The position numbers and the translations under genes were made by a program. From assembly GCF_013032505.1 (NCBI RefSeq), contig NZ_WQCG01000001.1:1054001-1118000 (forward strand): a DNA stretch of 64,000 nucleotides, given 5' to 3'. Origin of the DNA: Ruegeria atlantica (GTDB lineage: Bacteria > Pseudomonadota > Alphaproteobacteria > Rhodobacterales > Rhodobacteraceae). Positions within the stretch are counted from its first letter, which is position 1. Every line of letters begins with the position of its first letter. Below, in pieces: positions 42,879-55,009 of the stretch. A model generated the notes under the pieces. It was not told the DNA's origin and searched no databases. It worked only from the letters and a program-made list of their open reading frames with translations.

Positions 42879-43382
42879 TTACGCATCCCCGGTGCCGTCA
42901 AGGAACTCCAAAGGATCGAAATCCTCGGGCTGTTCATCCAACCACTCTTCGGCCGCGGCCAGTTCTTCGGAATCGTAGGTTTCCGGCTTCCATATCTGGA
43001 ACGTGTCCCCTGCGGCGATAAAGAATGCTTCGCCCTCGAGATCGATCTTGCTGCGCAGTTTTGCGGGCAACACCAAACGGCCGGTTTCATCTACTGTTGT
43101 CGGAAAGGATTGACCGTGGAACATCCGCTGCAACATCTTCCGCTGCATCGACCCGCGCGGCAGCGCATCAATCTTGGCATCAACTTCGTCAATTGCCTGC
43201 ATAGTATAGCATTCAAGGAACTTGCGGCGGTGATCACCGTAGACAATTACAAGTTCAGGAGTGTCTCCGGGCTGCCAGTTGGGGTCAGAGGCCTCAAGCA
43301 CACGGCGAAACGAGGCCGGGATTGACACCCTGCCCTTCGTATCCACCTTGTGGTGGCTTTCACCTCTAAACCTGCGCGCCAA
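42879..43382 (-). CDS. mraZ: Transcriptional regulator MraZ
   Basis: A 167-residue protein with two AbrB-like SpoVT folds: [20 protein letters not shown] and [20 protein letters not shown]. MraZ binds repeats in its own promoter and controls the dcw cluster. TTG 43382 with AAAGGGA 8 nt upstream gives the expected N terminus [11 protein letters not shown]-like; longer frames run into the leader RNA. I could not find the regular TGGG repeats of MraZ boxes near the start. Confidence 0.92.
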
Positions 43383-43434
43383 GACGACTGTCCCTTTCGC
43401 TTGCGCCCCACCTAAATTTCTCGCCCCCCGGATG

Positions 43435-43475
43435 AAAAACGGCGGGTTGATCTGCTGCCACTGATCAACCCGCCG
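43435..43475 (-). terminator. Terminator in the mraZ leader
   Basis: Perfect 13-bp stem CGGCGGGTTGATC / GATCAACCCGCCG (43440-43452 / 43463-43475), loop of 10, followed directly on the minus strand by TTTTT (43439-43435). It lies 53 nt before the mraZ start, so transcription entering from upstream must pass it. Confidence 0.85.
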
Positions 43476-43667
43476 CATTGACCCGCTGTGCGGGATGTCC
43501 AGCTGCGCGCGCCACCTGGGGGGATGTCTGCTCGCCCGCGCGCCGGATCTCTTGATTGATGAAAGCGAGATGCCTGTATGAAACCTGTTTTTATTGGTTC
43601 GGGGTCGTTTGGCGCCCCATGTGCCTCGTCCTCATCGGATGAACTAGGGATGGCATGGGAATTTATG
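43435..43667 (-). ncRNA. UpsM-like small RNA in the dcw leader
   Basis: In Rhodobacter sphaeroides the dcw leader yields UpsM, an RNA of about 200 nt that ends at an intrinsic terminator just upstream of mraZ. The same layout is present here: a strong terminator at 43435-43475 and a GC-rich foldable stretch above it (for example GCGCGC arms around 43500-43545). The 5' end is uncertain; CTTGAG (43702-43697) and TCTATT (43679-43674), 17 nt apart, could be promoter boxes placing the start near 43667. Homology is inferred from position and structure, not alignment. Confidence 0.55.
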
Positions 43668-44298
43668 GAAATCAATAGAAATTTTCTGAGCCATTCCTCA
43701 AGAATCACGGTCTGACTGTTCGTATTCGAAAAAATACCACACCAAATACACAATTTGTAGATGCAGTCTCCACACTCCCTACCAAATATGCCAAAAATAG
43801 TCGGTCCCCAATAGTTCCCATAATTTCCCGTATATTTTCCATCGAAAAGAAAAATCGGGGCAAGAGTGGCCAAAAAGAACCAGTTGAGTGCCGAATCGCG
43901 CCACCGTCGGAGCCAAATTAAGAGCGACACCCACCGCAACCCAGCAGGCGCCCATGAAATCCCATGAGCCGGAATATTTGTGTCAGTCGCCGCAGGCTTC
44001 GCCCACTCCGCTCACAAAGCGCACAAAGCGCACAAGAATTGACAAATCCTACTTAAGTAACACGCAACCTTCCGAAGTCGAAATATCAGATTGAAACCTC
44101 CCCCAGCGGAAGCTTCCGCCTAAGGCCTTATTTTGTTGACGCTTCCGGACCCACGTCAGCAAACGTTTGATATCTATGCATTTGCTGCATAGCGGCATTG
44201 ATGTCATCAGGTATTGTGCAATTGCAGCATTTGCCTATTTTCAATCTCAAGCAAGCGCCGGGCAACACCGGCAACAACGAATACATCGAGTTAAGCAA
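43668..44298. other. Intergenic region between dcw leader and DUF1127 gene
   Basis: AT-richer region. A weak minus-strand open frame (43412-43939, TTG start, one hydrophobic segment) crosses its left part but overlaps the leader RNA and terminator. On the plus strand, TCCGCCTAAGGCCTTA (44115-44130) precedes TTGACG at 44136-44141, a possible -35 for the DUF1127 transcript. Nothing else can be supported. Confidence 0.45.
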
Positions 44299-44523
44299 AT
44301 GGCTGTAGCAACACATAACACCGCGCTCAAAGGCGCACCGGTAACAAGCCTGGCTTCGCTGATTGAGGCGGCAAAGACCCGGTTTGTGCGGTATCGCATC
44401 TATCGCCAGACAGTTAACGAACTGTCTGATCTGTCAAACCGCGAACTGGCTGATCTGGGGCTTCACCGCTCAATGATCCGCCGCCTGGCCCAGCAAGCGG
44501 CCGAAGAACACGTCGCACGTTAA
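44299..44523 (+). CDS. DUF1127 small protein preceding the CcsR-type RNA array
   Basis: A 74-residue basic protein with the DUF1127 motif: RYRIYRQTVNELSDLSNREL, then ADLGLHRSMIRRLAQQA. Such proteins are Arg-rich and in alphaproteobacteria affect RNA turnover and stress adaptation. In R. sphaeroides the homologue RSP_6037 is co-transcribed with the CcsR1-4 small RNAs; here a hairpin array follows 20 nt later. ATG 44299 fits the family; upstream in-frame residues do not. Confidence 0.85.
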   Translation: MAVATHNTALKGAPVTSLASLIEAAKTRFVRYRIYRQTVNELSDLSNRELADLGLHRSMIRRLAQQAAEEHVAR

Positions 44524-44532
44524 GCGACACTG

Positions 44533-44844
44533 AAATACGAGATCAGGTCCTTCCTCCTCCCTTTTGGACCTGTATTTTAGCGGCGACATCTCTCCTCCTC
44601 CCTGATGTCGCCGCCCTTTATACCGGCCTTGAACGCCGGAACGTGACACACCGGGTACTCCTCCCTTTTCCTGGTGTTGAAAGCGCGCGGCGACGTCTCT
44701 CCTCCTCCCTGACGTCGCCGCGTCTTCCTCATACCGGGCTCGAACCCGGGTTCAGATACATCGGGGCTCTCCTCCTCCCTGCCCTGATGTTGAAAAGAAC
44801 GGCGGTTTCCTCTCCTCCTCCCAGGGAACCGCCGTTTTTGTTTT
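44533..44844 (+). ncRNA. CcsR/cuckoo-type small RNA array with six CTCCTCCC-loop hairpins
   Basis: Six consecutive hairpins, each with CTCCTCCC in the loop: (1) 44544-44550/44566-44572, 7 bp; (2) 44580-44590/44604-44614, 11 bp; (3) 44648-44655/44670-44677, 8 bp with one G-T; (4) 44686-44697/44711-44722, 12 bp; (5) 44758-44767/44781-44790, 10 bp with one G-T; (6) 44798-44810/44824-44836, 13 bp, ending in a T-run. Short hairpins (CCGGC at 44623, CCGGG at 44734) lie in two spacers. The loop is complementary to Shine-Dalgarno-like GGGAGGAGG. The same design downstream of a DUF1127 gene is known as CcsR1-4 in R. sphaeroides (cuckoo RNA family), where the units are processed from the DUF1127 mRNA. 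Confidence 0.88.
44798..44844 (+). terminator. Terminator formed by the sixth array hairpin
   Basis: A 13-bp stem (AACGGCGGTTTCC arm) with CTCCTCCC in the loop followed by TTTTTGTTTT (44835-44844). It ends the DUF1127-array transcript and is itself the last array unit. Confidence 0.85.
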
Positions 44845-44853
44845 CTCAGGCAA

Positions 44854-44882
44854 GAAAAAAACGCCGCGGTCAAAACCGGGCG
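44854..44882 (-). terminator. Terminator after uvrD/pcrA
   Basis: Eight-bp stem with one bulge (CGCC CGGT / ACCG GGCG; 44875-44882 / 44862-44870, loop of 4) followed on the minus strand by seven T (44860-44854). It faces the array terminator 10 nt away. Confidence 0.7.
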
Positions 44883-44928
44883 CTTTTCAATAGGATCAAG
44901 CATGTGCCGTCAGGCACATTCAATTTGA

Positions 44929-47325
44929 CTAAAACGGAACATCATCCTTGGCGGAGAGAAAGCGGGAAACCACCTTTTTGGTACCAGCCTTGTCAAAATC
45001 GACCTCGACCTTGTCACCCTCGATACCAATAACGGCGCCATAGCCGAATTTCTGATGAAACACGCGCTCGCCCATGGTGAAACTCGCAACTGCGGTCGCG
45101 TCGATCACCGTATTTCGGCTTTCGCGGGGTTGAGATGTCCCATATTGCCCCTGCCGCGCCTGCATCCGCCTCCAACCTGGCGAGTTGTACACATTCGCTT
45201 CAGCCGCACGGGTCTCAATACTCGCCGTCGGCTGCCCGCCCCCGTACAACCCGGGTGGCGTCAGAACTTCGACATGGTCTTCAGGCAACTCATCAACGAA
45301 GCGTGACGGCATTGCATTCTGCCACTGGCCAAACACCCGACGATTGGCCGCAAAGGAAATCGTACAGACTTCTTCCGCGCGGGTGATGCCCACATAGGCC
45401 AGTCGCCGCTCCTCTTCGAGGCCCTTGATCCCGGACTCGTCCATTGATCTCTGTGAGGGAAACAGCCCGTCTTCCCACCCCGGCAAGAACACGGCCGGAA
45501 ACTCAAGCCCCTTTGCCGCGTGCAGAGTCATGATGGAAACCTTGGCCCCATCGCCCTCTTGCTCATTGTCCATGACTAGGCTGACATGCTCAAGAAACCC
45601 TTGCAGGTTCTCGAAATTGTCCAGCTGGTTGACCAGTTCCTTGAGGTTTTCCAACCGTCCCGGAGCTTCCGGAGTCTTTTCGTTCTGCCAGTGGGCCGTG
45701 TAGCCGGATTCGTCCAGAATGATCTGTGCCAGTTCGATATGTGAGACCTCGGGCTCACCAAACCGCATCGGAGCGGAGCCATCATCAATTACAGAATCAT
45801 CGTCAACCTCGATCCGAGGACCTCGGGTCATCGCATTCCAGCGGGCCAACCCATCAATCAACTCGCGCAGCGCTTTGCCGCCCTTACCCTTGATCAGCCC
45901 GTTATCGACTGCAATGCGCGCGCCATCGACCAGAGACACGCCATTTTCCCGTGCCGTCATCTGAATCGTCTGCTGCGCCTTGTCACCAAGCCCACGCTTC
46001 GGAGTGTTTACAATCCGCTCGAACGCGAGATCGTCACCGGGGCTGACCACCAGCCGGAAATACGCCATTGCGTCGCGAATCTCCATCCGCTCATAGAATC
46101 GCGGGCCGCCTATGACCTTGTAGGGCAGACCAATGGTCAGAAAACGGTCCTCAAACGCCCGCATCTGATGGCTGGCCCGCACGAGAATCGCAATTTCATC
46201 CAGATTGAAGGGTCGCACCCCGCGCGTTCCGCCCTGCATCGCGTCGATTTCTTCACCGATCCAGCGGGCCTCTTCCTCGCCATCCCAGTGGCCGATTAAC
46301 CGTACCTTTTCGCCATCCTGCGCATCAGTCCACAGTTCTTTGCCCAACCGGCTTTCATTGCCGCGAATTACATTGGACGCAGCCGCCAGAATATGTGGGG
46401 TTGAACGATAATTTTGTTCCAGCCGGACAACATAAGCCCCGGGAAAATCCTTCTCAAACCGCAGGATGTTGCCCACCTCGGCCCCTCGCCAACCATAAAT
46501 TGATTGATCGTCATCCCCAACGCAACAAATGTTCTTGTGCGCCCCGGCCAGCAGCCGCAGCCACAGGTATTGCGCGACGTTGGTATCCTGGTATTCGTCC
46601 ACTAGGATGTAGCGGAACCAACGTTGATATTGCTCCAACACATCCTGATGGGTCTGGAAGATCGTGACCATGTGCAACAGCAGATCACCGAAATCCACCG
46701 CATTCAGCTCGCGCAGCCGGATTTGGTACTGAGCGTAGATCTCAATTCCCTTGTGGTTATAGGCGCCGGCATCGGCAGTAGGCACCTTGTCGGGCGTAAG
46801 CGCCCGGTTCTTCCAGTCATCAATGATTCCGGCCAACATGCGCGCAGGCCAGCGTTTGTCATCGATATTGGCCGCCTGAATCAGCTGTTTGAGCAGCCGC
46901 AGTTGATCATCCGTATCTAGAATGGTGAAATTCGATTTCAGATCGACCAGTTCTGCGTGCCGCCGCAGCAGCTTGACGCAGATCGAGTGGAATGTGCCCA
47001 GCCAAGGCATCCCTTCGGCCGGTTGCCCCAACAAACGGCCCACGCGGTTCTTCATCTCGCGCGCGGCCTTGTTGGTGAAAGTCACCGACAAGATTTCGTT
47101 CGGGCGCGCCCGCCCGGTACTAAGCAGATGCGCGATACGCGCGGTCAGTGCCTTGGTTTTGCCCGTACCTGCGCCTGCCAGCATCAGGACAGGCCCGTCC
47201 AAACGCTCGACCGCATCGCGCTGCGCGGGGTTCAGCTCGTCCAGATAAGGCATAGGGCGCGCGGCCATGGCCCGCGCGGACAGGGATGCGCCCTCGAAGG
47301 CGTCCATTTCGTCAAAACTGCTCAT
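44929..47325 (-). CDS. uvrD: DNA helicase UvrD/PcrA
   Basis: A 798-residue SF1A 3'-5' helicase used in nucleotide excision and mismatch repair. Walker A GAGTGKT is at 51-57, then DEYQDTN, VGDDDQSIYGWRGA, the VRLEQNYRST motif, and TLHAAKGLEFPAVFL. The C terminus (GERVFHQKFGYGAV) is the Tudor-like tail that binds RNA polymerase in PcrA/UvrD. Either symbol could be used. Confidence 0.92.
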   Translation of the reverse strand: MSSFDEMDAFEGASLSARAMAARPMPYLDELNPAQRDAVERLDGPVLMLAGAGTGKTKALTARIAHLLSTGRARPNEILSVTFTNKAAREMKNRVGRLLGQPAEGMPWLGTFHSICVKLLRRHAELVDLKSNFTILDTDDQLRLLKQLIQAANIDDKRWPARMLAGIIDDWKNRALTPDKVPTADAGAYNHKGIEIYAQYQIRLRELNAVDFGDLLLHMVTIFQTHQDVLEQYQRWFRYILVDEYQDTNVAQYLWLRLLAGAHKNICCVGDDDQSIYGWRGAEVGNILRFEKDFPGAYVVRLEQNYRSTPHILAAASNVIRGNESRLGKELWTDAQDGEKVRLIGHWDGEEEARWIGEEIDAMQGGTRGVRPFNLDEIAILVRASHQMRAFEDRFLTIGLPYKVIGGPRFYERMEIRDAMAYFRLVVSPGDDLAFERIVNTPKRGLGDKAQQTIQMTARENGVSLVDGARIAVDNGLIKGKGGKALRELIDGLARWNAMTRGPRIEVDDDSVIDDGSAPMRFGEPEVSHIELAQIILDESGYTAHWQNEKTPEAPGRLENLKELVNQLDNFENLQGFLEHVSLVMDNEQEGDGAKVSIMTLHAAKGLEFPAVFLPGWEDGLFPSQRSMDESGIKGLEEERRLAYVGITRAEEVCTISFAANRRVFGQWQNAMPSRFVDELPEDHVEVLTPPGLYGGGQPTASIETRAAEANVYNSPGWRRMQARQGQYGTSQPRESRNTVIDATAVASFTMGERVFHQKFGYGAVIGIEGDKVEVDFDKAGTKKVVSRFLSAKDDVPF

Positions 47326-54824: not shown

Positions 54825-54899
54825 GCGGGCGTAGCTCAGGGGTAGAGCATAACCTTGCCAAGGTTAGGGTCGGGCGTTCGAATCGCCTCGCCCGCTCCA
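54825..54899 (+). tRNA. tRNA-Gly(GCC), copy 1
   Basis: 75 nt with acceptor stem GCGGGCG / CGCCCGC, a D arm with AGCTCAGGGGTAGAGC, anticodon loop TTGCCAA (anticodon GCC), TTCGAAT T loop, and encoded CCA. Identical to the copy at 54935. Confidence 0.97.
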
Positions 54900-54934: not shown

Positions 54935-55009
54935 GCGGGCGTAGCTCAGGGGTAGAGCATAACCTTGCCAAGGTTAGGGTCGGGCGTTCGAATCGCCTCG
55001 CCCGCTCCA
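54935..55009 (+). tRNA. tRNA-Gly(GCC), copy 2
   Basis: Identical 75-nt gene with encoded CCA, 35 nt after copy 1. The spacer contains a GACC-GAAA-GGTC hairpin, perhaps a processing site for a joint transcript. Confidence 0.97.

Follow-up and report, generated by a model that had tools for sequence, protein, structure and literature searches.

The window (the whole 64-kb stretch of Ruegeria atlantica DNA analysed here) contains a DUF1127 gene that is followed, on the same strand, by an array of six RNA hairpins. The features of this locus and its neighbours, with the evidence for each in brackets, are as follows.

42879 to 43478, minus strand: mraZ, divergent neighbour, start codon unsettled (NF001476, 223.4 bits, cut-off 162)
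44177 to 44190, plus strand: box 1, TGCA-N6-GCAT, predicted LsrB-type site (sequence match)
44186 to 44200, plus strand: VtlR-like box TGCATAGCGGCATTG (13 of 15 bases, reverse complement of the Brucella VtlR motif)
44217 to 44230, plus strand: box 2, TGCA-N6-GCAT (sequence, genus alignment)
44299 to 44523, plus strand: DUF1127 gene, 74 aa, CcaF1-like by position (PF06568, E 1.3e-15)
44539 to 44839, plus strand: six-hairpin array, 3′ of the DUF1127 gene
44539 to 44578, plus strand: hairpin 1, module 1 (fold)
44580 to 44614, plus strand: hairpin 2, module 1 (fold)
44623 to 44639, plus strand: plain, motif-free spacer hairpin (CCGGC...GCCGG), between modules 1 and 2
44648 to 44677, plus strand: hairpin 3, module 2 (fold)
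44685 to 44723, plus strand: hairpin 4, module 2 (fold)
44734 to 44749, plus strand: plain, motif-free spacer hairpin (CCGGG...CCCGG), between modules 2 and 3
44758 to 44790, plus strand: hairpin 5, module 3 (fold)
44795 to 44839, plus strand: hairpin 6, module 3, likely a terminator too, with a U-rich stretch next to it (fold, sequence)
44929 to 47325, minus strand: UvrD/PcrA-type DNA helicase, convergent (best TIGR01073, 775.5 bits, below the cut-off of 911.2)

We observed that the motif CTCCTCCC was present six times on the plus strand (starts at 44554, 44595, 44658, 44702, 44772 and 44815, the last copy ending by 44822). No other exact copy was found in the window, and six copies were reached in 0 of 100 shuffles of it. 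The array region (44480-44880, 401 nt) had a folding energy of -170.2 kcal/mol, whereas its shuffles averaged -123.2 (z -8.5), and none of 100 shuffles equalled it. When modules 1, 2 and 3 were folded singly the z values were -7.7, -7.8 and -5.3, with every copy of CTCCTCCC in a hairpin loop. The loop reads CCTCCTCCC in five of the six hairpins and ACTCCTCCC in unit 3. The original prediction of six hairpins presenting one shared loop is thus borne out by the fold. It had also described the stems as unrelated in sequence, and this is true only in part: the stems are variable, but those of units 2 and 4 are nearly identical (GCGGCGAC[A/G]TC) and those of units 3 and 5 are similar.

Hairpin 6 runs into a U-rich stretch, so the terminator role that had been suggested for the last unit is plausible. 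It was not called by a consensus terminator scan of 44080-44930, since the scan takes loops of up to 8 nt and the loop of hairpin 6 has 11 nt. That scan gave one weak terminator-like site, on the opposite strand, and no consensus sigma-70 promoter was found in the same region.

As for the flanks, the helicase match is strong, yet it lies under the curated cut-offs. A G+C-rich inverted repeat 3′ of the helicase gene (44856-44926, minus strand) is probably that gene's own terminator; a SorX match within it is weak (E 0.025, below the gathering score) and at chance level. Between mraZ and the promoter region of the DUF1127 gene lies a long stretch (about 43480-44160). The sRNA UpsM of R. sphaeroides is described as a product of the dcw cluster leader (PMC8625941); a term search of the UpsM paper gave no link between mraZ and CcsR. 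For R. pomeroyi and P. denitrificans, the main texts of the sRNA studies contain neither mraZ nor uvrD nor DUF1127, and are therefore silent on this locus.

The repeat unit and its family

The copy number and spacing of the hairpins were compared across the genus (GTDB Ruegeria). Paired motifs were present in 54 of 54 genomes, and 44 of these, among the matches listed, were read in detail. Hairpins within a pair were 38-44 nt apart (142/142), while the distance from pair to pair was 63-71 nt (98/98). Of the 98 spacers between pairs, 96 carried the plain hairpin CCGG-N4-14-CCGG, and in the other two the stem was kept by one G-U pair (as read by eye); CTCCTCC was found in 0 of 98 inter-module spacers. 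This spacing rules out the single hairpin as the repeat unit in Ruegeria, and what is conserved is a pair of hairpins (here called a module) rather than the one hairpin that had been proposed.

Arrays of six hairpins, or three modules, were the commonest (34/44), and the remaining 10 of the 44 genomes had eight hairpins, or four modules. An expanded array is thereby ruled out, as three modules are the norm of the genus and larger arrays exist in other Rhodobacterales, with up to 15 hairpins in related loci. The original prediction had arrived at an expansion by counting CcsR1-4 of R. sphaeroides as four single hairpins. One R. sphaeroides RNA, RS0680a, is presumably the RNA later named CcsR1. 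RS0680a is described as two stem loops with the motif in each (PMC3927594); CcsR1-4 would then hold about eight loops, and the window corresponds to three two-loop RNAs, not to the expansion of a four-hairpin array. The array is ordinary for its genus, and this settled the main claim made for it.

To look beyond the genus, named genome contigs were scanned for three spaced motifs, which gave at least 118 loci; by titles and neighbours these were sorted into 44 Rhodobacterales, 40 Rhizobiales-type and 34 other loci. Leaving out loci without an array or with less than 450 nt upstream kept 41, 38 and 23, respectively. Among the 41 Rhodobacterales loci listed, 8 had six hairpins and 18 had eight or more, with a maximum of 15, although small arrays are under-counted in these figures because three motifs were required. 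Hairpins up to 160 nt apart were joined as one array by the script, and by this count the largest arrays among the loci listed had 15 (L031), 14 (L106), 12 (L028) and 12 (L130) hairpins. The pairing of hairpins was less regular outside Ruegeria.

The DUF1127 gene that had been placed upstream of the array was confirmed by its PF06568 match, and the layout recurs: 41 of the 44 Rhodobacterales loci listed have a same-strand DUF1127 gene no more than 400 nt upstream. mraZ was found upstream on the opposite strand in 29/44 of them, a helicase downstream on the opposite strand in 26/44, and both neighbours in 16/44; these neighbour counts are lower bounds, since the loci span at most 8 kb.

One alignment was made for each module class, with 44 distinct rows for the first modules, 54 for the middle and 43 for the last. 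The predicted pairs were formed in 99.7, 99.1 and 99.5% of cells, and two-sided changes were seen at 8/20, 9/22 and 4/20 pairs, that is, at 21 of 62 overall. Of 300 shuffles, no more than one came up to the observed value on any of the three measures; these shuffles ignore relatedness, and the alignments tested were also the source of the predicted structures. The last stem of the last module showed hardly any variation, and the consensus of this module has three loop bases paired, in contrast to the fold of the window sequence itself. A lack of covariation in relatives had been named as the outcome that would speak against the array; covariation was found instead. Across the 44 Ruegeria genomes, 281 of the 284 loops carried CTCCTCCC without a mismatch.

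We then considered the family assignment. An Rfam scan at the curated threshold gave nothing at the array, its sole matches in the window being two tRNA genes (54825-54896 and 54935-55006, plus strand; identical in letters, equal in Rfam score and 38 nt apart). Below that threshold the CcsR1 model (RF02791) matched three times in register, at 44535-44619 (E 3.8e-11, 50.0 bits), 44666-44726 (E 3.2e-8, 40.2 bits) and 44755-44840 (E 5.9e-5, 29.1 bits), all under the gathering score of 65.3 bits. As a yardstick, eight of eight related loci that were scanned also matched CcsR1 below the cut-off (best 56.2 bits), so this threshold does not discriminate here. The gathering score of ar14/NfeR1 (RF02344), 58.8 bits, was not reached in the window (best 51.7 bits), and was reached in 2 of the 8 related loci. 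In the rest of the genome a single further CcsR1 match appeared at E up to 1, a weak one (E 0.076), in a loose search that also gave matches in 8 of 14 control genomes, none of them above the cut-off.

The features by which CcsR loci are described were present in the window: neighbouring hairpins with variable stems and a CCUCCUCCC-type loop; the tandem two-hairpin units, seen in all 44 Ruegeria genomes too; and, as for CIN1, a DUF1127 gene immediately 5′ of the array and in the same direction. We file the locus as CcsR-type by its structure, E-values and locus rather than by the gathering score. The cuckoo/CcsR name given to it originally can stand, and the array is a known kind of locus with its unit and count corrected.

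Upstream boxes and an LsrB-like regulator

The approximately 100 nt before the DUF1127 gene were conserved above the rest of the upstream region in the genus alignment, and contain the two TGCA-N6-GCAT boxes and the VtlR-like box. In the NfeR1 promoter TGCA-N6-GCAT is the reported LsrB site, and the gel shift seen with it was lost after trimming or point mutation (PMC10746234). TGCA-N6-GCAT was found upstream in 44 of 44 Ruegeria genomes, two or more times in 33 of them. The Brucella VtlR motif is given as CAATGCAGCCATGCA (PMC12595884), which on the opposite strand reads TGCATGGCTGCATTG, and the window agrees with it at 13 of 15 bases. In 40 of the 44 genomes the best such stretch had two mismatches or fewer, and in the other four it had three, as compared to 0 and 3, respectively, in 880 mononucleotide shuffles.

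Among the Rhodobacterales loci listed, the VtlR-like pattern was present in 24/41 and TGCA-N6-GCAT in 35/41, while the reversed VtlR-like pattern, used as a control, was present in 0/41. The corresponding figures were 5/38 and 12/38 for the Rhizobiales-type loci listed, and 0/23 for either pattern in the other loci listed. Family-wide, the double box was seen in 219 of 295 genomes among the matches listed, which is an upper bound since a good part of these rows are other, unrelated sequence. The relaxed box pattern matched exactly at four further places in the genome (L232, L234-L236), and the 3 kb taken at each contained no DUF1127 match better than E 3.8.

One paper, drawing on selected species, calls LsrB unique to Rhizobiales (PMC11975290), and another describes VtlR/LsrB as present in many Alphaproteobacteria (PMC7486931). 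In the window's genome no LsrB-like gene lies beside trxB, as it does in rhizobia, and a whole-genome search was therefore made. The query was the gene that follows trxB in one genome of Rhizobium, and five genomes were searched, including three of other genera chosen for showing the box (G063, G217 and G321). The window's genome had one standout protein (C1:375325-376182; 43% identity to LsrB, 247 bits, the next at 126), and likewise one was seen in each of the three comparison genomes. In the reverse search LsrB came first (244.6 bits, the next at 136.1), making the two reciprocal best matches. The DNA-binding domain was 75-77% identical to that of LsrB in the four genomes, as against 38-42% in eight other LysR-type proteins, and the remainder of the protein was 30-32% identical. 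The Ruegeria protein is a candidate LsrB/VtlR orthologue, a reciprocal best match with a 77% identical domain, but it has no trxB neighbour, and in a small tree another Rhizobium protein fell inside the LsrB-like group, on a long branch. Among the curated NCBIfam models shown, none was at cut-off for LsrB or the LsrB-like protein. The gene itself (L256:1504-2409, at about 375 kb of C1) encodes a LysR-type regulator that is 31% identical to LsrB outside that domain.

The LsrB-like regulator is likely linked to the upstream box. In the literature searched, which did not include the principal CcsR and cuckoo publications, no link between LsrB/VtlR and CcsR was found; among the papers listed, only PMC12501420 uses terms from both sides, with LsrB confined to its reference list.

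As regards control, we also weighed whether the boxes might be no LsrB/VtlR-type site at all, with a heat-shock-type sigma factor driving the operon. The R. sphaeroides operon is reported to have an RpoHI/RpoHII promoter (PMC10253847, PMC8625941, PMC8307010). Such a reading would also fit the regulator's own locus, where no box with up to two mismatches was found in 3.9 kb, and the position of the regulator gene away from trxB. Against it stand the motif with at most two mismatches upstream in 40/44 Ruegeria genomes (0/880 shuffles) and the LsrB-like DNA-binding domain of the candidate regulator; moreover, the two kinds of control can coexist at one promoter. We regard sigma-factor control in place of LsrB-type control as a real possibility, though less likely than not. 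The upstream element and the LsrB-like regulator, as a control circuit in Rhodobacterales, are the part that deserves tests.

Loop-complementary sites and the proposed mechanism

The sequence GGGAGGAG, complementary to the loop, was found 3-10 nt before an ATG or GTG at 39 sites in the genome, as compared to 6 for the reversed pattern; among the 39, four lie antisense to the array. Pairing of the loops with Shine-Dalgarno sequences, as originally suggested, is therefore plausible. To see which genes follow these sites, 37 with a start codon in range were taken, and 11 with an ORF below 80 aa (three of them antisense to the array) were dropped, leaving 26. A control site, AAGGAGAA, gave 25 sites, of which 7 were dropped to leave 18 ORFs, the control being taken with ATG only and the target set also with GTG.

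Solute-binding proteins of the ABC or TRAP type made up 8 of the 26 ORFs led by GGGAGGAG and 0 of the 18 led by AAGGAGAA (Fisher p 0.009), in a test that is small, has a single control site and may reflect transporter Shine-Dalgarno sites that are strong for other reasons. The other GGGAGGAG-led ORFs included acetyl-CoA synthetase, two further AMP-binding enzymes, an SBP56-family protein and a molybdopterin-binding dehydrogenase. The control set included genes for a chaperonin (Cpn60) and for a Clp-type ATPase (L274, L290), and two of its 18 ORFs were without a Pfam match. A second genome (G321) had three GGGAGGAG sites only, leading two transporter receptors and one ORF without a Pfam match; the pooled figure (10/29 against 0/18, p 0.004) mixes two genomes and was set aside as the main figure. 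The bias towards solute-binding proteins agrees with the candidate targets of NfeR1, which are reported as mostly ABC transport systems (PMC10746234).

These results led us to conclude, with a probability of about 0.8, that the window carries a DUF1127-CcsR ('cuckoo', CIN1) locus, in which one transcript gives three two-hairpin CcsR-type sRNAs that mask Shine-Dalgarno sites and dampen nutrient uptake. From the anatomy, covariation, conservation and complementarity to Shine-Dalgarno sites observed above, we infer how transcription, processing, repression and the DUF1127 protein would fit together. Transcription would start upstream of the DUF1127 gene, run through the three sRNAs and end at hairpin 6. 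An endonuclease (RNase E, by analogy with R. sphaeroides) would cut the linkers and free the sRNAs, and the ends of these are probably marked or protected by the plain hairpins, which are conserved. Each loop would display CUCCUCCC, pair with GGGAGGAG Shine-Dalgarno sequences and lower translation, with the solute-binding proteins of uptake systems as the putative main target class. The number of modules would set the sRNA dose, and the DUF1127 protein would aid maturation and turnover, as CcaF1 does.

The analogies come from published work. In R. sphaeroides the ccaF1-CcsR transcript is reported to be cut by RNase E, with an effect of CcaF1 on maturation (PMC10253847, PMC8625941, PMC8307010), and the CcsR RNAs are described as stress-induced and processed from the ccaF1 transcript (PMC10253847, PMC8625941). 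CcaF1 was also reported to complement an Agrobacterium defect that acts through the kinase PhoR, so DUF1127 proteins may act through protein partners as well (PMC12501420).

A near-invariant loop on variable stems, in a copy number that differs among relatives, could alternatively mean that the loops are chiefly a decoy, mimicking the 16S anti-Shine-Dalgarno (CCUCCU) or binding a protein such as DUF1127, with copy number as sponge capacity; a protein sponge was part of the original suggestion, and it gained no separate support here. We consider the decoy reading improbable, since the loop-complementary sites are concentrated before start codons and at transporter genes in this genome, and since the family member NfeR1 represses a specific mRNA through its loops: mutating its three loops in S. 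meliloti was reported to abolish repression of an ntrB fusion (PMC10746234). That the hairpins, lying directly in the DUF1127 3′ UTR and ending in a terminator-like one, mainly stabilise the 3′ end of the mRNA and give no separate sRNAs is very improbable, as an invariant loop (281/284) would be unneeded for stability and the R. sphaeroides relatives are reported to be cut into sRNAs (PMC8625941).

A wider proposal can be made, which we hold tentatively and at slightly less than even odds. An LsrB/VtlR-type regulator, with a nearly identical DNA-binding domain and a different sensing domain, would exist in Rhodobacterales also and control the DUF1127-CcsR locus. It would be part of an ancient alphaproteobacterial nutrient-uptake switch, made of a LysR-type regulator, a DUF1127 protein and anti-Shine-Dalgarno sRNAs repressing solute-binding proteins, with its strength set by the number of two-hairpin modules. 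Binding of the LsrB-like protein to the conserved double box would mean that the rhizobial AbcR/NfeR1 sRNAs and the Rhodobacterales stress sRNAs have a regulator type and a target class, the solute-binding proteins, in common. Two separate literatures would then be joined, and marine roseobacters would gain a testable switch for substrate uptake.

Comparison with known systems

The closest known system is CcsR1-4 with ccaF1 of R. sphaeroides (RF02791; CIN1 or cuckoo RNAs), where a DUF1127 gene is likewise followed by several two-hairpin RNAs. The loop motif is the same, and RF02791 matches three times in register here. The R. sphaeroides locus differs in having four modules instead of three, and the window's matches lie below the gathering score. 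The LsrB/VtlR-like boxes were noted upstream of the Ruegeria locus, R. sphaeroides being known here from published descriptions.

The NfeR1/ar14 sRNAs of rhizobia (RF02344) share the loop motif and, as reported, the loop-to-Shine-Dalgarno mode; their targets are predicted to be mostly transport systems, and their promoter has an LsrB site (PMC10746234). They are described as having three hairpins per RNA and their own promoter, whereas in Ruegeria the hairpins come in pairs within the DUF1127 3′ UTR.

VtlR/LsrB of Rhizobiales, which controls DUF1127 genes and AbcR sRNAs there, compares with Ruegeria in two respects: a similar box lies upstream of an sRNA-linked DUF1127 gene, and a Ruegeria protein has a 77% identical DNA-binding domain. 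The Ruegeria gene differs in lying away from trxB, and its protein in being 31% identical over the rest of its length.
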